DNA from: a virus
DNA: 48,577 bases
Direction: 5' to 3' (one strand)
Virus record (IMG/VR): IMGVR_UViG_3300025286_004360
Location: 1 to 48,577 of that record
Positions 3,724-46,186 of the stretch are shown here, in pieces (position 1 is the first letter of the stretch; each line of letters begins with the position of its first letter). Position numbers and translations under genes: made by a program. The notes under the pieces were generated by a model. It ran no database searches and had not been told where the DNA came from. It was given only the letters and a program-made list of their open reading frames with translations.

Positions 3724-3837
3724 AAACATTAAAAGTTTATCGTGGCTTGTTAAATGCAAGCTTGACTTAAGCCGCCCACCACTAAATAATATTAGCTTAA
3801 CAGTTAATTGAATGCGCTCAGTGGCCTGTTAAAAAAC

Positions 3838-3952
3838 ACCAAGCTTGCAAGGCTTGGTTGGAACGCTAGGGATGCCACTCAGCTTTAGATTTAAACTGAG
3901 CCCTTCAAGCTTCCTAAACCTTACTACCGATAGCCGCAAACCTATCAGTAGT
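3838..3952 (+). ncRNA. Candidate structured RNA or 3' UTR
   Basis: Three successive hairpins are seen. ACCAAGC/GCTTGGT is at 3838-3858. A helix with CTCAG/CTGAG (3878-3900) is flanked by an AGGG/CCCT outer stem. ACTACCGATAG/CTATCAGTAGT (one mismatch) is at 3923-3952. They are followed within 10 bases by a strong intrinsic terminator. The stretch 3724-3960 has no credible ORF. It could be the structured 3' UTR of the exported-protein mRNA or a processed small RNA. No known RNA family is recognised. Confidence 0.4.
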
Positions 3953-3960
3953 TTCAAGAT

Positions 3961-3981
3961 AGCCCCGAAAGGGGCTTTTTT
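3961..3981 (+). terminator. Rho-independent terminator
   Basis: AGCCCC GAAA GGGGCT followed by six T. GNRA loop and perfect stem. It ends the rightward cassette before the convergent gene at 4019-4669. Confidence 0.9.
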
Positions 3982-4018
3982 GATTGTTTACTTAAAAACC
4001 GGGCAAATTTAAATAATA

Positions 4019-4669
4019 TTATTTTTCGATTGGCTCTATTAAGAATTTCCCTAACGGAGTAAGTTCAGCGTCCTTACCTTCTGGTAAAACTCCCTTCCTA
4101 TTATCCCACGAAGTTTTAGTAAATAATTCCAATGGCGTAAAGGCTGACATCGGCGCCATTTTAATCATTTCTTGATTAGCCTCTTTAAAGGTCTCTTTAA
4201 ATTTATGCGCTTTCTCTAGATCAGTGCCTTTAAAGCTCGAATGTGCCGAGAGAAACTGACAGTAAAGTGTCTCTTCTTTTCCTAAATTGAATTCAACTTC
4301 AGCTAAAGATTGCGAGAAAACCTTTTTCTCTTCTGCCCATGAGTTATAATATCCAGTCTCCTGTTGAATATATTTTCCCATCTCGCAGTCTATACGAGCC
4401 CGGCGATAGGATGTAATGCCTACATACTCCTTAGGGGTAATAATTCTTGAGTGAGTATCGATAAAAATGACATTTCCAAACATTCTTAATGAGGAAAGAT
4501 CAATCATGTCAATTTTTTCTTGGGAAACCCCGGTCACAGCAAGCTCCATATTAAGCGGCTGCCCTAACAGGTGCATTCTATAGGCATCAGCATCTTCAGC
4601 GTGTGACGCAGAGCAAAAAAAACATGACGAAATTATTGCCAATAGACTTTTCATATGCACATTTACCAT
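4019..4669 (-). CDS. Exported protein in the rex position behind cI
   Basis: 216 residues, not recognised as a family. An N-terminal signal peptide is clear (MKSLLAIISSCFFCSASHA, then EDADAY). The ATG at 4669 is preferred over the internal one at 4654 because of an AAGGA site 9 bases before it. The mature protein is mixed alpha/charged, with cysteines at CEMGKY and YCQFLS that could pair in the periplasm. The gene begins 13 bases after the cI stop on the same strand, so it is probably co-transcribed with the repressor in the lysogen. Lambda rexAB occupies the same slot. A role in superinfection exclusion or lysogenic conversion is inferred from position only. Confidence 0.75.
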   Translation of the reverse strand: MVNVHMKSLLAIISSCFFCSASHAEDADAYRMHLLGQPLNMELAVTGVSQEKIDMIDLSSLRMFGNVIFIDTHSRIITPKEYVGITSYRRARIDCEMGKYIQQETGYYNSWAEEKKVFSQSLAEVEFNLGKEETLYCQFLSAHSSFKGTDLEKAHKFKETFKEANQEMIKMAPMSAFTPLELFTKTSWDNRKGVLPEGKDAELTPLGKFLIEPIEK

Positions 4670-4682
4670 AAGAAGGTTCCTT

Positions 4683-5336
4683 TTAAAAATCTTGTATTAC
4701 CTGTTTTACTACGCCAATAATTGTACAGTTTCCGTTTATTGACATGGTTGGATAGCTATTATTAAACGGTTTTAGGTATTTAGTTCCGCCGTCTATAACT
4801 AGCTGCTTTAGTGTGGCTTCGTCATTCTCTTCTAATCGTGCTACAACCACTTTGCCATGCTCTGCCTGCATATTTGGATCGACTATTATTACAGAGCCTT
4901 CGGGGATTGATTTGCCGCCCGTAAAGCTGGTCATACTGTCGCCTTTTACTCGGAGTGCAAATGATTCATCGCTCACGTTAGCGGTATGCTGATAAAATGT
5001 GGTGTCGGTTTGGCGCAAGCTTTCCATATCTATTTCTTTCCATTTACCCGCTTGCACCCAAGATATTAACGGTGCTTGCCCTCTCAGGTCAGGCCCTAAC
5101 TCTAGTTCAATATTTTTATCTGGTGAGCCTTTGCCCTCCATTAACCATGCTAAGTTACAGCGTAAAAGCTTAGCCAATTTGACAGCGTTCGCACCGCCTG
5201 GCTCAGTTAACCCATTTATCCATTTGCTTGCAGTACTTTTAGAAATTCCAATCCTTCGCACCATATCTGCCGGCTTAATTCCGGACTTTTCCATTTGTAA
5301 TGCTAAACGTTGCTCAAAAGACATAGAACACACCAT
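4683..5336 (-). CDS. cI: CI/LexA-type prophage repressor with S24 autoprotease
   Basis: 217 residues. Residues ~5-65 form a helix-turn-helix (KPADMVRRIGISKSTASKWING). A linker with the Ala96-Gly97 self-cleavage site (WVQAGKW) follows, then an S24 peptidase domain with nucleophile Ser134 in KGDSM and general base Lys177 in ATLKQL. The family keeps the prophage silent and is cleaved when RecA is activated by DNA damage, so this phage should be SOS-inducible. The first ATG is at 5336; a second at 5324 (MSFEQR) is also possible. On the minus strand TATATA at 5347-5342 lies only a few bases before the ATG, so a leaderless mRNA as for lambda cI is possible. Six candidate operators flank this region. 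Confidence 0.93.
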   Translation of the reverse strand: MVCSMSFEQRLALQMEKSGIKPADMVRRIGISKSTASKWINGLTEPGGANAVKLAKLLRCNLAWLMEGKGSPDKNIELELGPDLRGQAPLISWVQAGKWKEIDMESLRQTDTTFYQHTANVSDESFALRVKGDSMTSFTGGKSIPEGSVIIVDPNMQAEHGKVVVARLEENDEATLKQLVIDGGTKYLKPFNNSYPTMSINGNCTIIGVVKQVIQDF

Positions 5337-23970: not shown

Positions 23971-24531
23971 ATGGCGCAATTATCTAGCTTGATCCCGTTA
24001 GTTCGTGAGCGCTGCGGGGGCGTTCTTGATCAAATGGCGAAAGACCAGCTAGGTCGCGCCTACCAAAAATTTTGTTATGAATCTCGCTTTTTGGCTCGCA
24101 CTCAAGAAATTGAGCAAGGGCAAGACGGGGCGCTTAACATTGATAGTGATCATGTGTTTGTTAGCGTTGATTTTGTTTTAGATGCTAATGGCTACGAGCT
24201 TAAAAGCTCAGATGATTACACCGTGTCACCCAATGGCACTGTTACGGTTATAAACACAACGCCAAAAGTGCGTGTGTTTTACCATATCGCCCCGCAATTT
24301 ATGCTGCCCAATGAATTTGAAGCAGATAACACCATTGTTAATCGCTGGGCTGATGCGATTGCCGATGGAGCGGCAGCAAATTTATTAATGATGCCTAATA
24401 CCGCATGGACTGATCTGGCAAAGTCTGACTACTTTAAACGCCGTTTTACCGATGGCTACCGCGATGCCTTCCAAGTTGCTATTGAAGCCCTGGACGAGCA
24501 AAGACCAACACAACCAAGAGTATTTTTCTAA
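23971..24531 (+). CDS. Head-tail connector candidate
   Basis: 186 residues, unrecognised by motif. An N-terminal helical segment (LSSLIPLVRERCGGVLDQMA, GRAYQKFCYESRFLARTQEI) precedes a beta-rich centre with the YTVSPNGTVTVI strand and a C-terminal helical part (YFKRRFTDGYRDAFQVAIEAL). Its size, position after capsid genes and ATG overlap with the next connector-like gene suggest an adaptor between portal and tail. Starts 2 bases after the preceding stop. Confidence 0.6.
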   Translation: MAQLSSLIPLVRERCGGVLDQMAKDQLGRAYQKFCYESRFLARTQEIEQGQDGALNIDSDHVFVSVDFVLDANGYELKSSDDYTVSPNGTVTVINTTPKVRVFYHIAPQFMLPNEFEADNTIVNRWADAIADGAAANLLMMPNTAWTDLAKSDYFKRRFTDGYRDAFQVAIEALDEQRPTQPRVFF

Positions 24532-25184
24532 TGGCTATAGTTACATCAAATGAAATCATGCAACGCGTTAATAAGTTGCTAAACGATCCTGGCTTTACTC
24601 GCTGGCCTAAAGACGAGCTGTTAAATTACTTAAACGATGCACAGCGCGCCATTGTATTACGCCGCCCTGACTCTTACACCGTTGACGTTGACGACTTTGC
24701 ATGTGTAGTCGGGGTAAAGCAGTCATTACCAGCCGACGCGCTCAAGCTAATTGATATACCGCGTAACGCCAGCGGCAAAGCTATTCGTGGCCCTTATAAT
24801 CGCCAAGTCCTCGATGATAACTACGATACCTGGTATGCGGGCAAAACCGCTACAGAAGTAGAGCTTTATATTTATGACGAGCGCAACCCTAAAACATTTT
24901 ATGTTTACCCTGGTGTTACTCCTGGTATTGAGTTGACCTTAGTCTATTCAAAGGCACCGCCAGCAATTGACTCAGCTGCCAACGATTCGGGCGAAGTTAT
25001 CGCACTTGATGATGTGTATGTAAACGCCATTATTGAATGGATTTTATATCGCGCGTACATGAAAGATGCGGAATATGCAGCCAATCCAAACAAGAGCCAA
25101 ATGCACATGAACGCATTTAGAAGCCAGCTAGGTGAAAAAAGTCAGGCTGACGTTGCGATGATGGGCGAAGAAAAAGGAAACTAA
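24531..25184 (+). CDS. Phage adaptor protein (DUF6682-like)
   Basis: 217 residues, start overlapping the previous stop (TAATGG). The N-terminus NEIMQRVNKLLNDPGFTRWP and ELLNYLNDAQRAIVLRRPDS is the hallmark of the adaptor family of short-tailed phages, followed by SLPADALKLIDIPRN and a helical end with EWILYRAYMKDAEYA. It would form the ring below the portal. Moderate certainty about the exact family, good certainty about the class. Confidence 0.75.
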   Translation: MAIVTSNEIMQRVNKLLNDPGFTRWPKDELLNYLNDAQRAIVLRRPDSYTVDVDDFACVVGVKQSLPADALKLIDIPRNASGKAIRGPYNRQVLDDNYDTWYAGKTATEVELYIYDERNPKTFYVYPGVTPGIELTLVYSKAPPAIDSAANDSGEVIALDDVYVNAIIEWILYRAYMKDAEYAANPNKSQMHMNAFRSQLGEKSQADVAMMGEEKGN

Positions 25185-25185
25185 C

Positions 25186-26736
25186 ATGACAGCAAGCGCA
25201 GGCGCGTGGTATCGCGTAGGTACAGTAAACGTTACTAATGACAATCAATCAGTCGTTGGTGTGGATACTAATTGGCAAAATGATGTTATTGCTATTGCGG
25301 TAGGTGATATTTTCACGCTAGATGCAAAGACCTGGTACGAAGTAATCGCAGTGAATAGCGATACAAGCATTACGCTTGATCGTGGCTTTGAGGGCTCTAC
25401 AGGCACAAATAAAACATACGCAATTGTGCGCAATACGTCCGGCACAATATTAACGCGCATTGCGGGCCAAGTATCAGTACAGTTTAATCAAAAGCAATTG
25501 TTTTTAGATGAGTTACGCACTTGGCTTAACTCTAACAATGCAACCGAAGAATTAACCGATAGTCACGGCTTAAAGCAAGCAATAAAAACTCCGCACCAAA
25601 TGATTGATGATGCAGAGCAGGCTGCCAGCACTGCAAGATCGGAATGGAACGCAGCGCGAGATGCAGTAGAAACTCGCGCTCAAACGGCTTATCGCGAGGC
25701 TGTTGAAGCGGCGAGCAGCGGTAAAAACACGGTAAAATATGACGCACAAGGCAACCCCAACGTCATGGTGTGGATACCCAAGTTTAACAGCGAGGACGTT
25801 AACCAAGCCATTATTGACCGTCACGGTGTTGATTTACAGCTAGGAACAGGCGTGTTTCCTGCGTTTATTAAAAACGGTGTGCAAATGCGTGGTTTTTGGT
25901 ATGCAAAATACATTGCAAGCACTGGCGAGAATGGCGGGTGCAGTGTTATATCAGGCGTGCAGCCAAGAGCATATGTAAATTACGACACCGCAAAATCACT
26001 GTGCACAAACAAAGGCACAGGCTGGCATTTATCTGCAAATATTGAATGGCTTGCAGTGGCGTATCTGGGCTTAGCATTTGGCGAGCAGCCTCGCGGCGAC
26101 ACAAACTACGGCCGCGCGCACGATGCAAAGTACGAAGTTGCAACTCGCGCATCAGCAACCCACGCACCTGGCGACACCGGACATTCATCACCGAGTTACA
26201 CAGGCACAGGCCCCGCAACGTGGAGTCACGACGGCACGCAATTTGGCGTGTTTGATATGGTCGGTAACGTTTGGGAATGGCAAGATCAGCTCAAACTGCA
26301 AGAAGGCCAGATATTTGCACCGATTGATAATAACCCTGACATGCTTGAAGGGGACTGGCCAGCCCACGAATGCTATTTTGATTCAAGCGGTGCAACCAGT
26401 GGAAGCGTTATTTTAAATAGCATGATTGAGAATCGACTAGGCACGCTGGGTGATAGTCAAAACTCTGGAAATACAAACTCAAACACTTGGCGTACTACAA
26501 GCAAAGACCCGTCTTACGTTGAAAACCTGCTAATGCGACAAATGGGTATTGAGCCGCCACCTGGCGCCATTCTAAATGGAAGCCTCTACAGTCGAAACTA
26601 TGGGGAGCGTTTGCCGTGTCGCGGTGGCTATTGGAACAGCGCGTCCATTGCCGGGCTTGGAGCACTCCGCTTCCACAACTCGCGCGCGGGTGCGCTCAGC
26701 GGTTTTGGTTTCCGTCCAGCTTTATTTGAGTCTTGA
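25186..26736 (+). CDS. DGR-diversified tail adhesin (Mtd-like) with FGE/C-type-lectin domain
   Basis: 516 residues. Residues 1-120 are a common phage tail-fibre start (WYRVGTVNVTNDNQSVVGVD, WYEVIAVNSDTSITLDRGFE, TRIAGQVSVQF). 125-180 is helical and likely a trimer coil. From ~195 there is an FGE-sulfatase/C-type-lectin domain (MVWIPKF, MRGFWYAKYIAST, GWHLSANIEWLAVAYLGLA, FGVFDMVGNVWEWQ near 353-366, RGGYWN). The last ~40 residues (473-512) are the variable repeat, ending GFRPALFES. This is the receptor-binding target of the retroelement: diversified residues should lie on the ligand-binding face, changing host range. AAGGAAA ribosome site. Equivalent to Mtd of BPP-1 in position and logic, although its N-terminal domain is different. 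Confidence 0.9.
   Translation: MTASAGAWYRVGTVNVTNDNQSVVGVDTNWQNDVIAIAVGDIFTLDAKTWYEVIAVNSDTSITLDRGFEGSTGTNKTYAIVRNTSGTILTRIAGQVSVQFNQKQLFLDELRTWLNSNNATEELTDSHGLKQAIKTPHQMIDDAEQAASTARSEWNAARDAVETRAQTAYREAVEAASSGKNTVKYDAQGNPNVMVWIPKFNSEDVNQAIIDRHGVDLQLGTGVFPAFIKNGVQMRGFWYAKYIASTGENGGCSVISGVQPRAYVNYDTAKSLCTNKGTGWHLSANIEWLAVAYLGLAFGEQPRGDTNYGRAHDAKYEVATRASATHAPGDTGHSSPSYTGTGPATWSHDGTQFGVFDMVGNVWEWQDQLKLQEGQIFAPIDNNPDMLEGDWPAHECYFDSSGATSGSVILNSMIENRLGTLGDSQNSGNTNSNTWRTTSKDPSYVENLLMRQMGIEPPPGAILNGSLYSRNYGERLPCRGGYWNSASIAGLGALRFHNSRAGALSGFGFRPALFES
26603..26721 (+). repeat. DGR variable repeat (VR)
   Basis: 119 bases at the 3' end of the adhesin gene, aligned without gaps to the template at 27165-27283. 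102 positions are identical and 17 differ. All 17 are A in the template: nine became G, five T, three C. This changes 13 of about 39 codons, mostly AAY codons (for example Asn to Tyr, Ser, Ile, Arg, His, Gly, Leu). The last 15 bases, GGTTTCCGTCCAGCT, are invariant and mark the initiation end. Non-adenine bases are unchanged. Confidence 0.97.
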
Positions 26737-26753
26737 ATTTAGCAACTTTGAAC

Positions 26754-26771
26754 GCTGCGCGATAGCGCAGC
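26754..26771 (+). repeat. DGR hairpin downstream of VR
   Basis: GCTGCGC-GATA-GCGCAGC: a perfect 7-bp stem with a GRNA-type tetraloop, 32 bases after the VR end and between the adhesin stop and avd. In BPP-1 such DNA hairpins or cruciforms are needed for efficient target recognition. Before it, GCAACTTTGAA (26742-26752) is also present after the template (27327-27337). Confidence 0.88.
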
Positions 26772-26801
26772 ACAATCAACTTCACTTTTAAGATTAGGTA
26801 A

Positions 26802-27158
26802 ATGTACGCATTATCAATAGAAGAAAAAACACGAGAAATGATGGTTTACGGCTATTTAGCATTAAAGCAATTCCCAAAGCACGAAACGCACGTTATGGGC
26901 GCAGAAATACGCCGCAGCATGCTTGCACTGCAGCGCCTTATTATTACTGCATTTAAGCGATACCACAAAAAGACCACGCTAACAGATATGGACATAGAGC
27001 TAACCATGCTAAAAAGAATGATACGCACAGCCAAGGATATGCGCTACCTAGACACTAAAAAATATAAAATATGGAGCGAAAAGCTCATTGAAATAGGCAA
27101 GATGCTTGGCGGGTGGGTAAAATCTGTTAAAATGAAAAACAAGGATGCAGCATTATGA
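26802..27158 (+). CDS. avd: DGR accessory variability determinant (Avd)
   Basis: 118 residues, basic and almost wholly helical (REMMVYGYLALKQFPKHETH, MLALQRLIITAFKRYHKK, LTMLKRMIRTAKDMRYLDTK, WSEKLIEIGKMLGGWVKSVK), as expected for the Avd four-helix bundle that forms a pentamer, binds TR RNA and the reverse transcriptase, and is essential for cDNA synthesis. Length and place between VR hairpin and TR are canonical. Its stop codon overlaps the ATG at 27155 (ATGA), which suggests coupled translation of the downstream TR/RT reading frame. Confidence 0.92.
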   Translation: MYALSIEEKTREMMVYGYLALKQFPKHETHVMGAEIRRSMLALQRLIITAFKRYHKKTTLTDMDIELTMLKRMIRTAKDMRYLDTKKYKIWSEKLIEIGKMLGGWVKSVKMKNKDAAL

Positions 27159-28432
27159 TTACGCGGGAGCGTATGCCGTATCGCGGTGGCAATTGGAACA
27201 ACACGTCCAATGCCGGGCTTGGAGCACTCAACTTCAACAACTCGCGCACGAATGCGAACAGCAATATTGGTTTCCGTCCAGCTCTTGATAACGCCAGAAG
27301 TACCGACCTCACGGGGTTGTGCCAGTGCAACTTTGAAAAGGATGCTGCAGCCTCAGCGCTTGCTGAAACACTGAACAAGCCGGTTGATGCGTCAACCGGC
27401 TGCACTTTTAGTTTAATAGTCAGCTATGAGAATATATTAAACTCAGCGTACCAGTGCAGAAAAGGCAAGGCAAACTCACCGGCAACCCTCAATTTTTTTA
27501 ACAACCTCGAAGAAAACGTTATCAACCTATATAACGAACTAAACTGGGGAACGTATGAGCTATCGAACTACCACCATTTCTATGTATTTGAACCCAAGCG
27601 CCGGCTAATATCAGCGCCCAACTTTCGCGATCGTGTTGTGCACCGCGCCATCTTTAATGTTATAGAGCCACTATTCGACAAAACATTCATTCACCATTCT
27701 TACGCGTGCCGAAATAATAAAGGCGCTCACAAGGGGGCCGATGTGGCGCAAAGGCAAATTCAACAAATAGAGCGCAAGCATGGAGTGGCCTACGCGCTAA
27801 AAGCTGATATAAGCAAGTATTTTTCAAGCGTTGATCATGAAATATTAAAGCGGTTGTTGAGCAATAAAATTAAATGCGAAATGACATTAACGCTACTGCA
27901 TTACATTATTGACGCAAGCCCAAGTGACAGCCCAGGCGTTGGCATGTCATTGGGTAATTTAACCAGCCAGATATTTGCTAACGTGTACTTGCACGAGCTG
28001 GACTGGTATGTAAAACACACGTTAAAAGTAAAAAACTATACGCGTTATATGGATGATTTCGTAATTATTCATCAAAATAAAAACTACTTACACGCCCAGC
28101 GCATAGCGATACAAAATTTTTTACAGCATCATTTAAAACTAAAAACCAACAGCAAAACACAAGTTTTTCCAATCGCCAAAAAAGGCGGTCGTGCGCTGGA
28201 TTTTTTAGGCTATAGAATTTACTCAACCCACCGCCTGTTACGCAAAAGCAGCGTAAAAAGCATTAAAGGCAAGCTTAAAAAATTTCATTGGCAGTATGCA
28301 AATTACCAAATAAATTTACCCAAAATCAATCAATCAATCCAATCATGGCTAGGCCACGCAAGCCACGCCAGCAGCTACAACTTGCGCAAAAAATTACTTA
28401 CCCCCACATTTAAAAGAGGTGATTATGTTTAG
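27155..28432 (+). CDS. DGR reverse transcriptase with TR-encoded N-terminus
   Basis: 425 residues from the ATG at 27155 (AAGGA 10 bases upstream, ATGA overlap with avd). Residues 4-43 are the template repeat and ~44-85 a linker. The RT domain starts near 88 (SYENILNSAYQCRKGKAN). Catalytic Asp218 is in ALKADISKYF, the DGR-specific GNLTSQ at 267-272 replaces the usual QG motif, and YMDD is at 298-301 (RYMDDFVI). Further family marks are EPKRRLISAPNFRDRVVHRA, HHSYACRNNKGAHKG and GRALDFLGYRI. In-frame ATGs exist only at 27155 and 27173 (inside TR); after TR only TTG at 27317 or rarer codons could start a shorter protein. It copies TR RNA with Avd, misincorporating opposite A. Confidence 0.93.
   Translation: MITRERMPYRGGNWNNTSNAGLGALNFNNSRTNANSNIGFRPALDNARSTDLTGLCQCNFEKDAAASALAETLNKPVDASTGCTFSLIVSYENILNSAYQCRKGKANSPATLNFFNNLEENVINLYNELNWGTYELSNYHHFYVFEPKRRLISAPNFRDRVVHRAIFNVIEPLFDKTFIHHSYACRNNKGAHKGADVAQRQIQQIERKHGVAYALKADISKYFSSVDHEILKRLLSNKIKCEMTLTLLHYIIDASPSDSPGVGMSLGNLTSQIFANVYLHELDWYVKHTLKVKNYTRYMDDFVIIHQNKNYLHAQRIAIQNFLQHHLKLKTNSKTQVFPIAKKGGRALDFLGYRIYSTHRLLRKSSVKSIKGKLKKFHWQYANYQINLPKINQSIQSWLGHASHASSYNLRKKLLTPTFKRGDYV
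27165..27283 (+). repeat. DGR template repeat (TR)
   Basis: 119 bases, 30 of them adenines, concentrated in AAC/AAT codons. Matches VR at 26603-26721 except at 17 adenines. Its transcript is copied into A-mutagenised cDNA that replaces VR while TR itself stays unchanged. Unusually it is fully open in the same frame as both VR and the reverse transcriptase, giving residues 4-43 of the RT ORF (for example PYRGGNWNNTSNAGLGALNF). Confidence 0.97.
27378..27401 (+). repeat. 10-bp hairpin between TR and the RT domain
   Basis: AGCCGGTTGA-TGCG-TCAACCGGCT is a perfect stem. It lies in the spacer RNA downstream of TR, which in BPP-1 carries structures bound by the reverse transcriptase and Avd and provides priming. 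It may play that role here or shield an internal start. Confidence 0.75.
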
Positions 28433-28844
28433 CTATTTACACAACGGCACCACACACACAAACACATCAAAAACATACATGCGAAAGCTGGGCCTAGACG
28501 ACGACGCAATTGAAGGCGTGCTGAGTCAAAAAGCATACGAAGAATCGCAAGAGCCGGTGCATGTAACTGCATTTAAAGCGCAACGACAATCGCTAATAGA
28601 TACAGCAATCGTAATCACATCATCGGGCAAATCGTTTGACGCCAACGAGCGCAGTATTATACGCCTGGGCAATGCAGTTATTAAGCTGATGGATAAGCCA
28701 GACAGCTACATAGTTCCGTGGTCTACTGCCGACGTAGATACCGGTGTAATGATTGAGTGCACCAAAGCCGAAATAGTAGAGGCGCATGAGCTTGCAACAG
28801 ATAATTTTGCAGCAATGTGGGCAATATCAAATGCTAATTATTGA
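28425..28844 (+). CDS. DUF4376-like small tail protein
   Basis: 139 residues from the ATG at 28425 (AGAGGTG upstream), overlapping the reverse-transcriptase stop by 8 bases; a GTG at 28419 is also possible. The C-terminal ~95 residues (FKAQRQSLIDTAIVITSSGK, FDANERSIIRLGNAVIKLMD, CTKAEIVEAHELA) resemble DUF4376, found in phage tail-fibre-associated proteins. Function is unknown, perhaps a chaperone or tail component for the adhesin. It is downstream of the retroelement, so the DGR is embedded in the tail operon. Confidence 0.65.
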   Translation: MFSYLHNGTTHTNTSKTYMRKLGLDDDAIEGVLSQKAYEESQEPVHVTAFKAQRQSLIDTAIVITSSGKSFDANERSIIRLGNAVIKLMDKPDSYIVPWSTADVDTGVMIECTKAEIVEAHELATDNFAAMWAISNANY

Positions 28845-28974: not shown

Positions 28975-30585
28975 ATGCCTGCCATATCCGTTAAAACATT
29001 TGCCGGTGAACGGCCTAAAGTCGATCCGCGTTTACTTCCCAACGAATCAGCATCTAAAGCATACGGTTGTCATTTTGATAATGGCAACCTTTCACCGCTA
29101 AAACGCCCCGCGCTAACCGGTATATCTGTACTGCCAAACGCAAAAACAATTTACCAGCACCTAAATGAATATTGGTTTGCGTGGGACAAAGTAGTTAACG
29201 CTGTAGCGAGCCCTATAGCGGATGATCCGTGGCAACGCGTTTACTTTACCGGCGATGGTTACCCGAAGGTTACAAACAACGCTATTTTTAGTGGCTCAAA
29301 CATGCCTGCTAATGCTTACCGATTAGGCATTCAATCGCCAGAGGTGCCAATAATTGCGGTTGTTACCGATGCGGCTACCGATGAAATAGATCCTAATGAT
29401 GATGAAACGCGCTACTACACACATACTTTTGTGACTGAGCAGGGCGAAGAAGGCCCACCAGGTGAAGCGTCACAACGTATTGACATTAGATACCCTGACG
29501 AAGAAGGCACTTACGTAACGCTTGCTTTATCGCCGCCAAATGTCAATGTGTCAAACATCACTCACCGCAGGATATATCGCACAGCAACCGGCGGCGGCAT
29601 TGCTGATTATTTATTTGTTGCTGAAATCCCTATTTCTCAAAATCAATTTGTTGATGATATTCCAACGGACGAGCTAGGTTCATCACTTGATACTTACGAT
29701 TATGAAATGCCAAACGAAAACATGATTGGTTTAACGTCAATGGCGAACGGGATACTTGCGGGCTTTTTTGATAGTACCGTGTGCTTTAGTGAATCCTACC
29801 TACCATATGCCTGGCCTAGTAGTTACCAGCTAACAACCGAACATAAAATAGTTACCTGCGCTGCGCTTGGGAATACGCTTGCGGTATTAACCGAGGGCTA
29901 CCCGTATTTATTTAGTGGTATTAGCCCGGATGCGATAGCCGGCCAAAAGCTAGAGTCTAACCAATCATGCACTAGTGCACGCTCTGCGGTGATAGTTAAC
30001 GGCTCGCTTATTTACGCAAGCCCCGATGGTTTAATAGGCTTTAATGGCGGAGGGCTGTCTATGCTAACAAGCCAAATAATAACCCGCGAGCAGTGGCAAA
30101 AATACGAGCCACACACTATTGAGGCGTACCACCAGGAAGGTCGCTACTTGGCGTTTTATGGGGCCAACTTAGACAAGGCATTTATATTTGATCCAAGAAG
30201 CGGCGACTTTAGGCACTTTACCGCAACGGCTGAATGCGGGTTTAATAGCTTGGTTGATGACGCCCTTTACATTTGCAGTGGCGGAAACTTGAGCAAGTGG
30301 GAGTCAAGCTCTTCGCTAACCAATTACACATGGCGATCAAAAGACTTTGAAGCAAACGACCTTAGCTTTGCGTGCGCGATGGTAAAAGCCGTTAAGGTCA
30401 ACCTTGTTGGATTTCGCATTTACGCAGATGGAGAGGAGGTTGTTCATCTCCCCCCTGGCAGCGTGCCCAGCTGCGCATTTAGACTGCCTAACACACGCGG
30501 TAATTCATGGTCCTTTGAGGTTTACGGACAAGGCACAATTCACAGTGTTTCTATTGCAACGACTATGCGCGAGGTGGCAGCTTAA
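28975..30585 (+). CDS. Putative tail nozzle / structural protein
   Basis: 536 residues, predicted beta-rich throughout. The opening FAGERPKVDPRLLPNESASKAYG with NGNLSPLKRP is typical of large podovirus tail-tube or nozzle proteins of the tubular-B class. Later segments include TPYLFSGISPDA-like beta-propeller strands and TEQGEEGPPGEASQRIDI. It is located between the adhesin module and the large fibre gene, and its stop is directly followed by the next ATG (30586). Assigned from length, context and general resemblance; no catalytic motif is seen. Confidence 0.62.
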   Translation: MPAISVKTFAGERPKVDPRLLPNESASKAYGCHFDNGNLSPLKRPALTGISVLPNAKTIYQHLNEYWFAWDKVVNAVASPIADDPWQRVYFTGDGYPKVTNNAIFSGSNMPANAYRLGIQSPEVPIIAVVTDAATDEIDPNDDETRYYTHTFVTEQGEEGPPGEASQRIDIRYPDEEGTYVTLALSPPNVNVSNITHRRIYRTATGGGIADYLFVAEIPISQNQFVDDIPTDELGSSLDTYDYEMPNENMIGLTSMANGILAGFFDSTVCFSESYLPYAWPSSYQLTTEHKIVTCAALGNTLAVLTEGYPYLFSGISPDAIAGQKLESNQSCTSARSAVIVNGSLIYASPDGLIGFNGGGLSMLTSQIITREQWQKYEPHTIEAYHQEGRYLAFYGANLDKAFIFDPRSGDFRHFTATAECGFNSLVDDALYICSGGNLSKWESSSSLTNYTWRSKDFEANDLSFACAMVKAVKVNLVGFRIYADGEEVVHLPPGSVPSCAFRLPNTRGNSWSFEVYGQGTIHSVSIATTMREVAA

Positions 30586-37472: not shown

Positions 37473-40400
37473 ATGGCTTATAATTATTTTGAAAAATCAC
37501 CTGTAGAAGCAGCACAGGCAATTGAAAAGAAAAGTCAAGGCGCGCCACTTAACGATGGGCTTGTCGGTGATGCTGTAGATTCGTTCCAAGCTGGCGCGCT
37601 TAGCGGTATGGGCGGAATGTTTGACTTTGTTGGCGCTGAGGGTATAGCTAAGTCGCTGTATGCTTGGTCGGATGACCAGCAAAAAACAATGTCAGAAAGC
37701 GGTAGAGAGTCACTAAGCAAACAATTCATAACCGAAGATGCTAATGGCGATATAGCTATTGGTGAGGGTATGAAGGATATTGATACGTGGATCTTAACAA
37801 TGGCCAATGTTGCAGGCCAATTTGCAGGGACAGCGGTTCCAGGCGGCGCAGCGGCAAGAGCAGTGACAAAGGTGGCGAACTTAGGTAGCAAAGGCGGCAA
37901 AGCTGCAGGTGCTATAGGCATGGGCGCTACAGGTGGGTCGGCGGCTACAGGCCAAGGTATGGAGCAAGCAAGGCAGGAAATTCAAAACATGCCTGATGAA
38001 ATACTTGCCGATTCGCCAATGTTTGTAGGCGTACTAAAAGATATACACTCAAAAAAACCAAGTCTTAGCGGCGCTGAAAAATGGGACTTGGCAAAAGATG
38101 AAATTGCTAGTCGTGTTGCTCAAGATGTAAGAACAGACCCCAAGGTGTTAGTTGCGAATTTTGCGGCAAGCGCAATCGGAGATCCGATTATAGGCAAGGC
38201 GTTAACGGGTGCAAGAATAGCCAAAAGTGGAGCGCTAAAGAGCGCTTTGGCTGGAACTGTAACGGAAGGAACAACAGAGTCTATTCAAGCTGGCGTTCAG
38301 CAGTATGGTATAAATGAAGCCTTGCAACCTATTGATAATAGAGATTCAATGAAAGGAGTTGTAGCCGCAGGATTAAATGAAGGTATTGCTGGCGCGGGTT
38401 TCGGCGGCATCGCTGGCGGAATTGGCGGCGTAGCAAATAGAGGCAATACCATACAAGATGAACAGCCATCTACTACTTTGCCTGATGATGAAACCACTCC
38501 AAGAATTGACGAAAATGAAGGTGTTAAACTACCAGATGCTATTGCAGATGAAATAGCCATTGCTCCACGTAGTGAAGCGGCTAGTAAATTTCAAAGCGCT
38601 TCATCTGATATTGTGAGTAATGGTGTTGAGCAACTTGTTGGTACAGGGTTTACAAAAGAGCAAGCAATTGAAGCGGTAAAAGGCTACCAATATCAAGCGG
38701 CAATAAAAAAAGGGCTATCTGAGCACGAGGCGTCATTGGTTGTAGCTCAAACAATGAGAGATAAGTTTGATATAGATGATCCTATATTAACATCGCCTGC
38801 ACCCGAGCAAGCAATGCCAAGCACCACGCAAGTAGCACAAGTTGAAAGCGAGGTAGGCAATTTAAAGTCCCCTATAAAAGAGCCTGAATACATTGCGCCA
38901 ACAAGTGATAGTGCACAGCTAGATAGAATAGCCAGCGCTGCAGAATCCATGAAAACTGTAAAAGCAAAGCAAAACACTAAAGCTTTTTTAGAAGCAGAAA
39001 AGGCAAGGTTAAAACAAGCTGAAATTGAAAGAAGTGAAGCAGCAAGTTCAATAATTGCAGATACCACTAACTATCTAAACGCATCTAAGGCGCCTAGCGA
39101 GCTGGATAACAACCAATCATTACAGCAACAAAGTGCTACACAAATAAAGCAAACCCCACAAAAAGATATTGTGTTTGCCGGTAACGAAAGCGGCGTTAAT
39201 GTTGCTAAAAATGGTGAAGCATTTAAAACCAAACGCGATGCGCTATTAAGTAAAGAAGCACGCGCAGCACGCAGGGCAGGCCAAAAAACTAAGGCAGTTA
39301 GTTTTGATAATGGCTTTGGCTGGACGATTAAAGGTGATGACGGCACCAAGCAAGATTCAGAGCAGGCAGCAGCGGAGCAAAGTCCTGAGTCTGATACAGT
39401 TGCGCAAAATGAACAGGGTGATCAAGCGCAGCCAGCCCAACAAGAAGGTGAAGCGTTATCGTTAAACGTAGACGCGGAACAAGTGAGTAGCGAAGAAAAT
39501 AAGAATATCGCAGGTGAAATGATTGATGATGAATGGCAATCTTTTACAAAGGAGAGCGGCACCAAAAATATACCGCGTTCAGAAATGCCACAAATCAAAG
39601 CTGAAAATCGCGGCGCTATGGTTAATTTTATGAAAGCGCGTGATATTGGCAATGAAAAAGATGAGGTGCAAGCAAGCTCATTAAAACCAACACAGCAAGA
39701 ATTTTCGCCAGCAAAAGTAAAGCAAGCGAAAGAGTTTGAAGGCGGCAGCCGCTCTATACTGGTATCGAATGACGACTATATATTAGACGGGCATCACCAA
39801 TGGTTAGCCGCACGCGAAAAAGGCGAAACTGTAAAAGTAACCCGCTTAAATGCGCCTATTGAACAGCTAGTACCATTAGCTAAAGAAATGCCAAGCACTG
39901 AAACGCAAGATAATGCTGGCAACTTAACAGCAACCGGCAATGAAGAAACTGCCACCACTGGTAAACTAAACAGCGATAGTGGTAAACAATCTGAACAAAA
40001 AGCCGTTGAAACTGCCGAAACTGGTAAATTAATTGAACAAGAGCCGGCAACTACTGAACAGCAGGCAGAGCTACCGCCAATACTAAAAACAACTAAGCGC
40101 AAGTGGCTACAAAGTGAAGCTAAAAAGCTAGGCATTAAAAAAGGTTCGCCAGGTTATGATGCAGCCGTAGCTAAAATAGAAGAAAGCTACGAGCCAGCTA
40201 TTGATAAAGCGCTCGCTGAATCATCGTTTGAAACATATCAAGAGTTTAATAGCGATACACCGGAAAGCATTAACCGCCAAGCGTATAACGAACTGCGCAA
40301 AGAGTTTGGCTATGATAAAGCACCACCGCCAGATGCGATTAAGCCAAATGAAGATGCAGAGCCGCCAAAGAGCGGTTTTTCTTTGCCTGAAACACTGAAT

Positions 40401-43400
40401 GCGGATGGCATGACCGCCGATGAAATAGAGGCAGTTATCAATAAAACAAAAAACGAATTGGCCAACACAAAAACAGAAGATTGGGGCAATCTGAGAGGGC
40501 AGGGTAAGCGTACTGGCGGCATGGTTATGGGTGGTATGCGTGATTCATCATTGCAAGGCGAAAAGTCATACTTGAACCCAATAGGTAAGCTTGAGGACGT
40601 TAATAAAGCTGACTATGACGATGCTATCGCAACATTTAATGATAATAGCATGGCAAAATCAGCGTATGGCAAAGCGAGAAGCGCGGGCTTTGATCATGAT
40701 ACATCACTACGGTATGGGTTAAGTAAAGTCGCAGATATAGGAATGACATTTTCTGAACTGTTAAAAGTTGCAAAGCAGAAAGATAAAGTGAGCGAGAAGC
40801 CTGCCAATAATAAATCAAGCACCAATCAAGCAACGGTCAAGCAAGAAAGTATTAATGACACTGCTAGTGAAACAGAAATTAATGACATTGCTAACGAGTT
40901 GGAAATTGAAACCACTGATAAAAGTGTAAAAGTATTTGGCGATCCTGAAGAAATACGCGCCAAGCTAAGAGCGAGCGGTATTGATTTTTTAGGAGCCGAT
41001 ATAGAGGGCGGGCTTTCGTTTGGTAAAAAGCAGGAGCAACGAATAAGAGCAGCTATAGAGGGAGATAATATTGAATTATTCTCTAAATCCAAAAAGCCCA
41101 GCAATGGCAAGTCGATCAGTATAAAGCAAGCTCAGCGCGTTGCAGATCAGTTTATTAAAGGCTTAAAAGGTGCCAACGGGATCAAAATAAGTATATTGCA
41201 GGATACCGCCACAGCAGAAAAACTATGGCGCATGAGCTTAGACGGCGCAACGGTTAAAGGCGCTTATAGCGAGCTGAGTAAAACGGTTTATATAATTGCT
41301 GAAAACATCGATAACCTAACCGATTTAAAGCAAACGCTAGCACATGAAACAATAGCGCACGGCGGCCTTGATACTGTTATTGGTAAAGAGGCTAAGCAAG
41401 AATTCCTTAACCGCATAAAAGCCACTAAGGGCCGTAAAGCATTTGAAGGACTTTGGAGAGAAGTAAACAAAGACTACTGGGATGCAAGCTTGGACGTAAA
41501 GGTTGAGGAGATGTTCGCCCGCTTTGTAGAGAACGAACCAAGCAAAGGCGAGCTTAAATATTGGTGGAACGCGTTAAAACGCTGGATAAAAGCGCAGTTA
41601 GATAAAGCGGGGATTATGTACCGTGAAGATGATGAACTAACCGCAATGCGTGACATGCTTGAAAGTATAGTTAAAGGATTCAAAGCGCAGCGCGAAACAG
41701 CAGAGCAGCAACAAGGCGGTATAGCTTTAAGCTCAAAGAAAAATAAGCCAAGCGACAATGGCGACTCAAACGAAAGCGAGCAATACCGAAAAGATTTAGC
41801 TAAGGCGATGCGCTCACTTCGATCTAATCCTCAAATGATCACGCTAGGAAAAACCCCAAAAGTGTTAAGGCTTCTTGGCGCTCCGGACTTATCTTTACAA
41901 ATATCGAGAGATACCATTAAAAAAGCGACCAACGGCATTAAACACGCTGTTGGCATGGATGTAATTGCAAACCTACCAGAGCATTTATCTGATCCAATAG
42001 CTGTTTTCAAATCGAAAACACACGGCAAGGTATTGCTTATTGACGCGGTTGATAATAATAACAATCCGATAATTGCAGCTGTTCACTTCGAGAAAAAAGC
42101 AGGACGTAACCTTCAAATTAATAATATAGCGAGTGTGTATGGAAAGGATAACGCGGATAGTGCACTGAAAGGTTTTGAGCTTGAATACTTAAATGAAGGC
42201 AAAAACCCTGCTTTGGTACGACTTGTTGGACTCCAATTGTCCAGAAGTGGTTCACCATCACAGGGTCTGAGTAAAAATGTACTTACTAAAGAGGACATTG
42301 TCAAGGAAAACCCTGACATAAGCTTCAGCCGCACAGCCAATAACGACACTAGCCCAGCGCCAAACAAAATAGCGGGATCAGTAAAAAAAGCGTTTACCCG
42401 CGACCGCTTTGAAAAATCAAGCGTGCCAGAGTGGGACGCATTAAACGCACAATTACGCGAAACTGATAAAACCGCAGGCGAAAAAATAAAACGTCAGCTT
42501 TCACGCTGGTTTATGCCCGGTGGCAACATGCCTGAAACCGTTCAGCAAGCTAAGAGAGGCCGTGATCGCGATGTGGCAGTGCATGAGTTTGATGTATCTA
42601 TGCTGGTAGGCAAGCTAAATTCAGCAATGAAAAGCGCTAAAATAAACCCTGACAGATTAACCGATGCGCAATGGTCCAAATACCACGAGTTTTTAACGGG
42701 TGAAAATGATGGGCAATCACTAAAACAAAGTGAGCGCGAAACTCTTATTCTAATGCGCGAACATATCGACGGACTTACACAAGACTACGTTGCAAGTGTT
42801 AACAATAAACTTCAACAGCGATTTGAAGAAGATGGATCTATTGACCCTAAAGAGTCGGCACGCCTTGAAAAAATGCTAGGTAACATGGGTAAATATTTAA
42901 ACCGCAGTTACAAAGCATTTGATGATCCTAAGTGGTTTGAAAAAATACCTACCAAGATTGCTGATGATGCCCGTGCATACTTAATGAAACAGTATAAAAA
43001 AGACGGCGCAACAGCAAAAGAAGCACAGCAAAAAGCCCAAGTAACTATGAACGAAATGGTTAAAACAGGCACCGCTTACGACAGCTTGGGATCTTTTATT
43101 GCTGAAAGTAAGCTTGGCTCTAAAGACTTATCTACGTTAATACCACGAAAAGACATCGCACCTGAGATCAGAGCTTTACTAGGTGAGTACATTGATCCGC
43201 GTGTTAATTATGCTAAATCAGTATCAAAAATGTCAGCTATGATCGCTAATGATAAACTACTAAGCACCATTCGTGACATGGGTATTAATAACTTTATTTT
43301 TGAAAAGGACGACCGCCCACCTAATGCGACAGTACAACTGGCGGGTGAAAAATCCGAAGTGTACGCGCCACTAAATGGCATGTGGACAACGCCAGAAATT

Positions 43401-45113
43401 AAAGAAGCGTTTGAAGATGCTATGGGCGGTGAGCGCGGCGAGGGCTGGCTAGAAAAAGCCATACGACTAAACGGGCTTATTAAATACGGCAAAACTGTGC
43501 TGTCACCCACAACAGCCATGCGTAATGTTATGTCGGCGTACTTTTTCACCGTTGCCAATGGACACTTTAATCAAAAATACATGAAGCAGGCCGTGGCAGC
43601 ATTTAACGCACAAGTTAAAGAAAAAGTAACCGATGGCGAATCTGATTACATAAAACGCTTAATTAAATTAGGCGTGCTTTATGACTCAGCTAATGCAGGC
43701 GATATAGTCAAGGTGATGACTGATGGCAAAATAAACCAAATGCTTGAAGGCAGAAGCAACACAGGCTTTGATGGGTTAAATAAACTAGCCGACAAAACAA
43801 CGGAGAACTTGCGCTGGTTAACTGCAAAGGCCACAGGGTTTTATCGCTTTGGCGATGACTTTTGGAAAATAGTCGGATTTGAAAATGAAAAAGCAGCACT
43901 AATACGTACTGGTATGGCAGAAAGTGATGCAGAGGTAGTGGCCGCTGAACGCATACAAGATACCTACCCAACATACAGCCGAGTAGGCAAAGCGGGGGCA
44001 TGGTTGTCACGGTTCCCGCTAGCAGGTACGTTTGTATCGTTCCCGGCTGAAATCATTAGAACGACAGGTAACATGATGAAGCTTGCAGCCAGTGAAATAA
44101 AATCAGACAACCCCAAAATACGCGCAATGGGCGCAAAACGAATTGTAGGCATGAGCTTAGCCAGTGGCGGCATGTTTGCTCTATCTGCATTAAGCGCCGC
44201 CATGTTTGGCGTGACCGATGATGAAGAAGAAGCGCTAAGAGATTTAGCGCCGCCATGGCAAAAAAATTCAACCTTTGTTTACGCAGGCCGAGATAGCGAT
44301 AACAATCTACGTTACTTTGATATGTCGTTCTTAGACCCATACGCTTACTGGAAGCGCCCTATAGAGGCCATGATGCGCGACCAACCTGTTAACGAGGCTA
44401 TAGCCTCATCACTTAGCGATATGGTATCGCCGTTTTTAGGCACTGACATAACAACAAGCAAAATACTTGAAGTGCTCAGTAATAAAAAAAGCAGCGGTGG
44501 GCAAGTATACAAAGAGAACGATACCGCCATACGCAAAAGTGCAGATATAGCCAGCCATCTAGCATTAGGTTTAGCACCCGGCTTTGTAAATAATGCGTGG
44601 CGTATTGGTATGGCTGCGGGGGATGTTAAACGCTCAACAGGAAAGCCTTATAGCTTATCGGATGAAATGCTAGCACTTGCAGGCTTTAGAAGCTCAACCT
44701 TTGATCCTAAAGTGGGCCTTTACTACCGCACGTTTGACTTTAACAGCGCCATAGCCGAAGCCAGAAAAGAGCTAAGCGGCGTACTAAGAGATCCTAACAA
44801 AGTGTCTGATAGTGAAATAAGCGCAGCCAAAGCAAGAGCCAAAACAAAGCAAGAGCAAGCGTTTAAGCAAATGTCACGTTTAATTAAAGCGGCCCAAACA
44901 GGGGGCGCAAGCCGCAGGCAAGTAGTGCAAATACTCTTTTTAGCGGGGATTAGTAAGCGCAATGTTGGCTTTTTACTGCGTGAGCAAGTGCCGCCAGTAA
45001 ATCTATCGGACCGCTCATTTGAAAGCGCAGTGAAGCGAGCGCAGTTAATAATGGATAATGAATCAGCAAGGGAGGTAAGAAGTCGATTTAACCGCATAAT
45101 CAAAAATGATTAG
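37473..45113 (+). CDS. Giant polyvalent internal protein (ParB-like, protease-like, MuF-C-like, LPD38-like regions)
   Basis: 2546 residues. Visible parts are as follows. 1-330 has Gly/Ala-rich membrane-active stretches (GGAAARAVTKVANLGSKGGK, GIAGAGFGGIAGGIGGVANR). ~757-790 is a ParB/sulfiredoxin-like core (RSILVSNDDYILDGHHQWLA). ~1283-1300 is a metalloprotease-like LAHETIAHGGLD with HExxH spacing. ~1460-1565 matches a MuF C-terminal, BECR-nuclease-like domain (HLSDPIAVFKSKTHGKVLLI, IASVYGKDN). 1600-2546 is a long helical large-polyvalent-protein region, LPD38-like (YGKTVLSPTTAMRNVMSAYF, GAWLSRFPLAGTFVSFPAEI). Such proteins are packaged, ejected with the DNA and may act on the host early. Catalytic activity of any part is unproven. 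It ends the late operon. Confidence 0.78.
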   Translation: MAYNYFEKSPVEAAQAIEKKSQGAPLNDGLVGDAVDSFQAGALSGMGGMFDFVGAEGIAKSLYAWSDDQQKTMSESGRESLSKQFITEDANGDIAIGEGMKDIDTWILTMANVAGQFAGTAVPGGAAARAVTKVANLGSKGGKAAGAIGMGATGGSAATGQGMEQARQEIQNMPDEILADSPMFVGVLKDIHSKKPSLSGAEKWDLAKDEIASRVAQDVRTDPKVLVANFAASAIGDPIIGKALTGARIAKSGALKSALAGTVTEGTTESIQAGVQQYGINEALQPIDNRDSMKGVVAAGLNEGIAGAGFGGIAGGIGGVANRGNTIQDEQPSTTLPDDETTPRIDENEGVKLPDAIADEIAIAPRSEAASKFQSASSDIVSNGVEQLVGTGFTKEQAIEAVKGYQYQAAIKKGLSEHEASLVVAQTMRDKFDIDDPILTSPAPEQAMPSTTQVAQVESEVGNLKSPIKEPEYIAPTSDSAQLDRIASAAESMKTVKAKQNTKAFLEAEKARLKQAEIERSEAASSIIADTTNYLNASKAPSELDNNQSLQQQSATQIKQTPQKDIVFAGNESGVNVAKNGEAFKTKRDALLSKEARAARRAGQKTKAVSFDNGFGWTIKGDDGTKQDSEQAAAEQSPESDTVAQNEQGDQAQPAQQEGEALSLNVDAEQVSSEENKNIAGEMIDDEWQSFTKESGTKNIPRSEMPQIKAENRGAMVNFMKARDIGNEKDEVQASSLKPTQQEFSPAKVKQAKEFEGGSRSILVSNDDYILDGHHQWLAAREKGETVKVTRLNAPIEQLVPLAKEMPSTETQDNAGNLTATGNEETATTGKLNSDSGKQSEQKAVETAETGKLIEQEPATTEQQAELPPILKTTKRKWLQSEAKKLGIKKGSPGYDAAVAKIEESYEPAIDKALAESSFETYQEFNSDTPESINRQAYNELRKEFGYDKAPPPDAIKPNEDAEPPKSGFSLPETLNADGMTADEIEAVINKTKNELANTKTEDWGNLRGQGKRTGGMVMGGMRDSSLQGEKSYLNPIGKLEDVNKADYDDAIATFNDNSMAKSAYGKARSAGFDHDTSLRYGLSKVADIGMTFSELLKVAKQKDKVSEKPANNKSSTNQATVKQESINDTASETEINDIANELEIETTDKSVKVFGDPEEIRAKLRASGIDFLGADIEGGLSFGKKQEQRIRAAIEGDNIELFSKSKKPSNGKSISIKQAQRVADQFIKGLKGANGIKISILQDTATAEKLWRMSLDGATVKGAYSELSKTVYIIAENIDNLTDLKQTLAHETIAHGGLDTVIGKEAKQEFLNRIKATKGRKAFEGLWREVNKDYWDASLDVKVEEMFARFVENEPSKGELKYWWNALKRWIKAQLDKAGIMYREDDELTAMRDMLESIVKGFKAQRETAEQQQGGIALSSKKNKPSDNGDSNESEQYRKDLAKAMRSLRSNPQMITLGKTPKVLRLLGAPDLSLQISRDTIKKATNGIKHAVGMDVIANLPEHLSDPIAVFKSKTHGKVLLIDAVDNNNNPIIAAVHFEKKAGRNLQINNIASVYGKDNADSALKGFELEYLNEGKNPALVRLVGLQLSRSGSPSQGLSKNVLTKEDIVKENPDISFSRTANNDTSPAPNKIAGSVKKAFTRDRFEKSSVPEWDALNAQLRETDKTAGEKIKRQLSRWFMPGGNMPETVQQAKRGRDRDVAVHEFDVSMLVGKLNSAMKSAKINPDRLTDAQWSKYHEFLTGENDGQSLKQSERETLILMREHIDGLTQDYVASVNNKLQQRFEEDGSIDPKESARLEKMLGNMGKYLNRSYKAFDDPKWFEKIPTKIADDARAYLMKQYKKDGATAKEAQQKAQVTMNEMVKTGTAYDSLGSFIAESKLGSKDLSTLIPRKDIAPEIRALLGEYIDPRVNYAKSVSKMSAMIANDKLLSTIRDMGINNFIFEKDDRPPNATVQLAGEKSEVYAPLNGMWTTPEIKEAFEDAMGGERGEGWLEKAIRLNGLIKYGKTVLSPTTAMRNVMSAYFFTVANGHFNQKYMKQAVAAFNAQVKEKVTDGESDYIKRLIKLGVLYDSANAGDIVKVMTDGKINQMLEGRSNTGFDGLNKLADKTTENLRWLTAKATGFYRFGDDFWKIVGFENEKAALIRTGMAESDAEVVAAERIQDTYPTYSRVGKAGAWLSRFPLAGTFVSFPAEIIRTTGNMMKLAASEIKSDNPKIRAMGAKRIVGMSLASGGMFALSALSAAMFGVTDDEEEALRDLAPPWQKNSTFVYAGRDSDNNLRYFDMSFLDPYAYWKRPIEAMMRDQPVNEAIASSLSDMVSPFLGTDITTSKILEVLSNKKSSGGQVYKENDTAIRKSADIASHLALGLAPGFVNNAWRIGMAAGDVKRSTGKPYSLSDEMLALAGFRSSTFDPKVGLYYRTFDFNSAIAEARKELSGVLRDPNKVSDSEISAAKARAKTKQEQAFKQMSRLIKAAQTGGASRRQVVQILFLAGISKRNVGFLLREQVPPVNLSDRSFESAVKRAQLIMDNESAREVRSRFNRIIKND

Positions 45114-45421: not shown

Positions 45422-46186
45422 CTAATTCAACTTTTTCCATTCGTCAACAAACCAATCAGGCTTAACCTGCTCTGGCTCACGGAAAAACAGGCTTAAAAAT
45501 TCGTAAATATTAGAGCGTACAGGTTTGGTTTCGTATTGCTCTAACTCTTCAATCGCTTGATCTACAGGTAAATCACGTGTTTGCTTTGCTCGAGTAATAG
45601 CAAATTCAGCAACATCCAACAAGCCGCGCTCATCGAGATCTTGAAATAACTCTAAAACTTCTCGCTCCCTTGGTAAGCGCTCAACAGTCATAGGGGTAGC
45701 GTCTGCAAGAAAATTATTAGTATCACCCTTTAATAAAACGGTTAGCGCGCTATGGTTGGAGTGCCCATCACGAATATAAAACACAATTTCTGAGGCGCTG
45801 AAAAAGCCGTTAATAAATGCACATAGACGATCTTTATCACCATAAGTTGTGCCAGCACTGGCCAAGCGTGTGTTTTTTGTTTGGCACAAAGCAGGGATTA
45901 CATGATGGTTAAGGTTTGATAGTAATATAGATAATCCGCCCAGTCTTTCTTGCATGGTGTGAACTTGATTTCCTAGAGCTTGGCGCTGATCTAGCGCTGT
46001 TTGCAACTTCTCCAACAGGTCGACATTCACAATTTCATTTTTATTCACTTCATCATCAAGCGACCTCTCAAGCCTTGATACTACCTCTGCATTCAAAGAT
46101 CGCCCGTTAAGGTTAGATTTATTTTGAAGTTCTTCTTTCAAATGGCTAGGCATTCTCAGCCCAAATGGAGCTATATCTCTACTCAT
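45422..46186 (-). CDS. Ribbon-helix-helix (Mnt-like) repressor with long C-terminal part
   Basis: 254 residues. Residues 5-50 are an Arc/Mnt-type ribbon-helix-helix (PFGLRMPSHLKEELQNKSNL, NGRSLNAEVVSRLERSL). Mnt itself is about 83 residues; here the C-terminal 200 residues are extra: a coiled coil (LLEKLQTALDQRQALGNQVH) and an unrecognised alpha/beta domain (DKDRLCAFINGFFSASEIVF). It is divergent from two small Arc-like genes and the antirepressor, the layout of P22 immI, where Mnt represses ant. Operator-like palindromes lie in the shared intergenic space. The added domain could sense a signal. Confidence 0.78.
   Translation of the reverse strand: MSRDIAPFGLRMPSHLKEELQNKSNLNGRSLNAEVVSRLERSLDDEVNKNEIVNVDLLEKLQTALDQRQALGNQVHTMQERLGGLSILLSNLNHHVIPALCQTKNTRLASAGTTYGDKDRLCAFINGFFSASEIVFYIRDGHSNHSALTVLLKGDTNNFLADATPMTVERLPREREVLELFQDLDERGLLDVAEFAITRAKQTRDLPVDQAIEELEQYETKPVRSNIYEFLSLFFREPEQVKPDWFVDEWKKLN

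Follow-up and report, generated by a model that had tools for sequence, protein, structure and literature searches.

The 48.6-kb virus contig IMGVR_UViG_3300025286_004360, an IMG/VR record that we analysed over its whole length of 48,577 nucleotides (hereafter the window), carries a diversity-generating retroelement (DGR) in which the template for rewriting a tail adhesin also appears to be read as protein. The source is a marine virus and, judging by its genes, a temperate podovirus. We consider it highly probable (about 0.88) that the element at 25186-28432 is a functional DGR of this podovirus whose template repeat (TR), together with the spacer that follows it, is translated as the N-terminal leader of the reverse transcriptase (RT). 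In function it would be a standard DGR. Its layout, conserved but uncommon, is what stands out, since the template overlaps the enzyme gene in frame. The parts of the cassette are:

25186-26736, plus strand: tail adhesin of 516 aa, the DGR target (FGE-sulfatase, PHROG tail-fibre N-terminus and TaqVP matches).
26603-26721, plus strand: variable region (VR), a 119-nt gapless repeat of the TR.
26754-26771, plus strand: hairpin or cruciform GCTGCGC-GATA-GCGCAGC with a perfect 7-bp stem, 17 nt past the adhesin stop.
26802-27158, plus strand: avd, accessory variability determinant, 118 aa (bAvd, NF033474, phrog_3206).
27141-27145, plus strand: Shine-Dalgarno-like AAGGA, 9 nt before the ATG at 27155.
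27155-28432, plus strand: RT open reading frame (ORF), 425 aa, with the RT domain from about 27407 and the motifs GNLTSQ and YMDD.
27165-27283, plus strand: TR, in the RT frame and corresponding there to residues about 5-43.
27284-27406, plus strand: TR-RT spacer, both coding and structured RNA by the ratio of non-synonymous to synonymous change (pN/pS) and by covariation.

The original prediction had placed a complete DGR in canonical order at these positions. Adhesin, VR, hairpin, avd, TR and RT were all identified and they do follow that order; the TR, however, lies inside the RT frame 27155-28432 and not between avd and RT. A recount confirmed the gapless alignment of VR and TR over 119 nt with 17 of 17 differences at template adenines (9 A>G, 5 A>T, 3 A>C). 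Given the 30 adenines of the TR, such a placement has a hypergeometric p of about 7e-13. Across 16 cassettes, 199 of the 206 differences between TR and VR fall on TR adenines. The ten AAY codons of the TR can yield 15 possible amino acids and never a stop, and indeed no stop codon can be reached by adenine mutation anywhere in the TR; adenine occurs in 20 codons in total, three of them silent. The VR ends a few codons upstream of the adhesin stop. A second VR is absent from the window: all 89 non-adenine positions of the TR are matched at TR and VR alone, and the best other place reaches 42/89.

Comparison with a close relative, the locus L003, indicates that the VR has been rewritten repeatedly in the lineage of the window, because 18 of 30 adenine sites differ between the two VRs and only 1 of 89 other sites. 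Thus 18 of the 19 VR differences sit at adenines shared by both TRs; the TRs themselves show a single difference, whereas the 600-nt stretches preceding the VRs show 40. The earlier claim that the receptor-binding protein had been rewritten at least once is thereby borne out, and the check on population variants that had been proposed, carried out here on relatives, gave the same adenine-centred pattern. The intact parts and catalytic motifs, the 17/17 adenine-only changes, with TR and VR otherwise free of background mutation, and the existence of relatives that carry different VRs on the same TR leave very little room for a decayed, inactive DGR, even though broken relatives exist (L044, and the Vibrio phage VHML with its spacer insertion) and the VRs of L003 and L008 are identical, their upstream 600 nt differing at 1/600. 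The identity of these two VRs speaks against continuous rewriting; the process is therefore episodic. In another locus, L050, tandem near-identical 628-nt repeats (3678-4862, offset 557) surround the avd-TR stretch and seem to reflect duplication of a portion of the cassette; the copies differ at 8 sites, 7 of which are adenines in one of them.

The enzyme and its accessory protein are of the DGR type. Avd matches Pfam bAvd (6e-32), phrog_3206 (7e-44) and NCBIfam DivGenRetAVD (NF033474), above curated cut-offs. The RT, in which both predicted motifs are present, matches RVT_1 (1.7e-17) and a PHROG RT family (1e-155). Among PDB sequences it comes closest to the 328-aa chain 8ub7 (316 bits, E 4.8e-93), which we take to be the RT of the Bordetella phage BPP-1, whose brt has 328 aa by its coordinates. 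The next PDB match is a group II intron RT at 118 bits. In a maximum-likelihood tree the window RT falls inside the DGR clade, as had been expected, with BPP-1, VP58.5, ACA1 and other DGR RTs, all parted from three group II LtrA proteins by a 100/100 branch; owing to long-branch rows, the exact place of BPP-1 within that clade is uncertain. The tree and the TR/VR pattern already refute the notion of a defence or mobile RT, such as a retron, defence-associated RT (DRT) or group II intron enzyme, lying beside an unrelated repeat, and with Avd present as well we give it hardly any credence. Profiles of these families do match the RT, but all below their NCBIfam cut-offs, with group II at 139.6 bits against 300, Drt3a at 67.8 against 200 and retron St85 at 51.9 against 235.

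We then asked how the TR is embedded in the RT gene. It is not intergenic: TR and spacer are free of stops and run in frame into the RT as its N-terminus, and the RT start ATG at 27155 overlaps the avd stop (ATGA). The same in-frame TR-spacer-RT arrangement, opened by an ATG that overlaps the avd stop, occurs in all 19 intact loci of the clade, window included, and an AGG stands at about the same spacing upstream of that ATG in 19/19. All 18 tree rows with a fused TR-RT form one clade (100/100), and L100, a locus from an independent genome search, has the fused arrangement too. Since nine of the 19 loci contain no ATG, GTG or TTG between TR and RT core, translation of the RT in these phages, if it uses ordinary start codons, has to begin no later than the TR, which is then itself translated.

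The reading frame of the TR is in itself uninformative on selection because the TR encodes the end of the adhesin in the same frame. The spacer is not copied into the VR and is therefore informative. Its pN/pS is 0.45 in the RT frame (bootstrap 0.31-0.63) and 1.05 and 1.03 in the two other frames; its indels are all multiples of three, and its motifs EKDA and AIAE are conserved at the amino-acid level. Selection on the spacer in the RT frame, together with the invariant ATG and upstream AGG at the avd stop, also argues against an RT that starts inside the spacer at a non-ATG codon, with the open TR frame a by-product of copying a coding VR. The window does offer a TTG 11 codons past the TR, brt of BPP-1 starts 144 nt past its TR, and the RT model shows no order before residue 68. 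The TTG, however, is missing in L003 and most relatives, and the nine clade members mentioned above lack any such codon ahead of the RT core, so that we regard a start in the spacer as improbable.

Synonymous divergence in the spacer (0.42) is half that of the RT core (0.82), which suggests a second constraint on the spacer; we read it as RNA structure. Three hairpins are predicted:

27305-27318, plus strand: spacer RNA hairpin 1, stems 27305-27309 and 27314-27318, double changes in 3 of 5 pairs, 17 relatives.
27353-27366, plus strand: spacer RNA hairpin 2, stems 27353-27357 and 27362-27366, an A-U to G-C exchange, 5 relatives.
27378-27401, plus strand: spacer RNA hairpin 3, 10 bp with the loop UGCG, double changes in 5 of 10 pairs, present in the minimum-energy fold.

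Taken together, 93% of their cells are paired. Double changes occur in 41 cells; shuffled alignments give 14.7, and sliding the pairing partners gives 1-9. Rfam gave no match. An RNA role was to be expected because the spacer of BPP-1 folds, recruits RT-Avd and primes cDNA synthesis (summarised in PMC12875486). The special point is thus the double coding of the spacer rather than its role as RNA.

The hairpin after the VR was compared in the same way. Its loop, GATA, fits the GRNA-loop rule for DGR hairpins, and a hairpin following this rule was shown to be necessary for homing in BPP-1 (PMC3240598). Relatives keep the GRNA loop while their stems are altered on both sides together, as in compensatory change; as the set was aligned by picking the best stem around each GRNA loop, the covariation counts are partly selected for, a caveat that spares the stem of the window itself and the same-place stems of close relatives.

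Besides this selection effect and the identical VRs of L003 and L008, several observations weigh against a functional DGR with a translated leader. The spacer is not unusually stable relative to shuffles when folded as a single sequence (z -0.23 and -0.28), so that the support for RNA structure comes from covariation and not from energy. Outside the clade, stop codons interrupt the spacer of L101 and of L102, whose TR is not translated into the RT; in BPP-1, too, the TR stays untranslated, the RT starting after the 144-nt spacer. VHML (L053) carries a one-base insertion in the spacer, compared with VP58.5, that breaks the TR-RT frame and represents either decay or a sequencing error in an old record. 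Finally, leader residues 1-67 of the RT model have a predicted local distance difference test score (pLDDT) below 50 and are predicted to be disordered. The leader is therefore unlikely to act as a folded domain, though it may act in coupling or regulation.

The disorder leads to a reading that we consider quite possible, if short of an even chance: the leader would be translated only through coupling of the RT to avd, the peptide being idle and the frame kept so that ribosomes reach the RT. The architecture of BPP-1 has no such leader, and the BPP-1 RT works without one. The amino acids of the spacer, though, are conserved beyond what frame-keeping demands (pN/pS 0.45; EKDA, AIAE), a ratio that the RNA constraint blurs. 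We would suggest, tentatively, that the template RNA of this clade may be obligately translated, that RT synthesis and template use may compete, and that the leader peptide or the ribosome traffic might time receptor mutation.

For the DGR with a translated leader, the following course can be proposed. A transcript through avd and TR-RT would be bound at the structured spacer by RT and Avd, and the RT would copy the TR with errors opposite adenines. The GRNA-loop hairpin would then direct the cDNA to the 3' end of the adhesin gene, where it would take the place of the VR, a mechanism taken over from BPP-1. The resulting adhesin variants would be altered at up to about 17 codons, presumably shifting the host surface that is bound. 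Ribosomes, for their part, would initiate at the ATG that overlaps the end of avd, so that TR and spacer become the N-terminal leader of the RT. One stretch of RNA would hence act as mRNA, as template and as RT-binding structure.

The adhesin itself has the two-part build that had been proposed for it, a C-type-lectin-like target domain of the FGE type on a tail-fibre N-terminus. Residues 1 to about 135 are a phage-specific tail-fibre attachment part (PHROG tail-fibre N-terminus), and residues from about 160 to 516 form an FGE-type C-type-lectin domain (phrog_2889) with the VR at its end; Pfam FGE-sulfatase is matched at 2.7e-6, which passes the gathering score. Of the targets with a solved structure, the nearest is TaqVP from the DGR of a Thermus aquaticus prophage (5VF4, PMC6328139), an FGE-subtype C-type lectin with a C-terminal VR (profile 8.5e-108). 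Comparison by fold with Foldseek matched it as well (E 1.5e-25), at 31-32% identity over the alignment. The adhesin model has a mean pLDDT of 64.8 with a confident core, and its fine detail should not be pressed. The original prediction had further held that the target is not an Mtd copy. This stands for sequence and architecture, Mtd structures matching less well than TaqVP, but not for the fold, because Mtd also has the FGE subtype of the C-type-lectin fold (PMC6328139). If the receptor-binding protein is rewritten as proposed, host-range variation would be built in, as had been expected.

How does the element compare with DGRs already described? The module of the window is the same as that of ACA1 and ACA2 (Pseudoalteromonas; PMC10612066) and of VP58.5 and VHML (Vhmlvirus): an antireceptor C-terminus, the hairpin, avd, the TR as RT N-terminus and a small downstream ORF. 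The RTs of ACA1 and VP58.5 are 66-68% identical to that of the window and lie in the same RT clade. Those carriers are P2-like or VHML-type myophages, whereas the window comes from a podovirus with another adhesin N-terminus and other flanks. BPP-1, likewise a podovirus, shares the order target-hairpin-avd-TR-RT, adenine-specific VR change and the GRNA-loop hairpin; it differs in an RT of 37% identity and an intergenic TR, and its target Mtd has the fold subtype of the window adhesin without being close in sequence. The Aeromonas phage phiARM81mr resembles the window in its SU10-type adaptor upstream, its internal virion protein downstream and a TR that is open into the RT, but its RT is 50% identical and possible later starts in the spacer make its fused state uncertain.

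Fused TR-RT arrangements are already known, if little studied. The translated TR of ACA1 was stated by its authors in one sentence (PMC10612066). In the DiGReF group 3 cassettes the TR overlaps the annotated RT ORF; the available portion of that report defines the group by annotation overlap and contains no translation or selection test (PMC3521204). Roux et al. describe the TR as 'in most cases' intergenic (PMC8144416). As far as the literature searched shows, the results on conservation, selection and covariation are what is added here, and the window is a further member of the ACA1/VP58.5-type fused TR-RT subclade and no new kind.

Homology between the window and other clade members begins within the adhesin, at about residue 112-186, and takes in its C-terminal part, avd, TR-RT and the first portion of the small ORF; most other phages share only this C-terminal part of the adhesin. 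No homology extends past the module in L007, L009, L011-L017, ACA1 and VP58.5, and flanking virion genes are common only to L002, L003, L008 and L069 and, more distantly, phiARM81mr. On these comparisons, target domain, avd, TR-RT and small ORF move together as a single module among unrelated phages. In L005 the RT is 89-90% identical, but the adhesin N-terminus differs and so do most of the neighbours, which makes the exchange fairly recent. Carriers comprise P2-like and VHML-type phages as well as the Alteromonas macleodii plasmid pAMBAS45 (NC_018680.1, L084), where a fused TR-RT DGR lies near a phage baseplate gene; pAMBAS45 is probably a phage-plasmid. The last part of the module lies directly downstream of the RT:

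28419-28844, plus strand: small ORF after the RT, starting at GTG 28419 or ATG 28425, with tail-fibre-like PHROG matches.

Its homologues stand 3' of the RT in nearly all clade cassettes despite differing phage flanks, its first 40 residues or so are best conserved, and the module may thus include it as an additional component.

The cassette (25186-28432) sits within a virion operon, between the adaptor gene at 24531-25184 and an internal virion protein gene at 28975-30585. The genome encodes a CI-like repressor, RecE/Bet recombination, O/P replication, an endolysin, a terminase, a portal (phrog_156), an SU10-type adaptor and the internal virion protein. A Paraglaciecola metagenome-assembled genome (MAG) holds an RT fragment 93% identical to the window RT, followed by the same virion genes, which suggests an Alteromonadales host; an RT of such similarity was found in only 5 of 397 genomes of that family. 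In the Paraglaciecola MAG G007, the source of L069, three places within the one bin closely resemble the window RT, as if a single host or bin contained more than one DGR prophage or phage. The window genes that were scanned include no integrase, and an Arc-domain protein (45422-46186) has weak matches to partition-protein PHROGs; plasmid-like lysogeny is a possible reading of the two. A virion protein of 2546 aa (37473-45113) bears a MuF C-terminal domain mid-protein and is possibly an ejected multi-domain protein.

As a DGR, the element of the window is one among many. Its clade, however, is a clear example from nature of a single RNA segment that has to meet the needs of coding, template and structure at once, and it raises the testable question of how a cell translates an RNA that must also fold and be reverse-transcribed. 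The carriers of the module range from podoviruses to P2-like and VHML-type phages and a phage-like plasmid. Target domain, mutator and companion ORF are thus exchanged together, and this makes hypervariable receptor binding portable across tail types.

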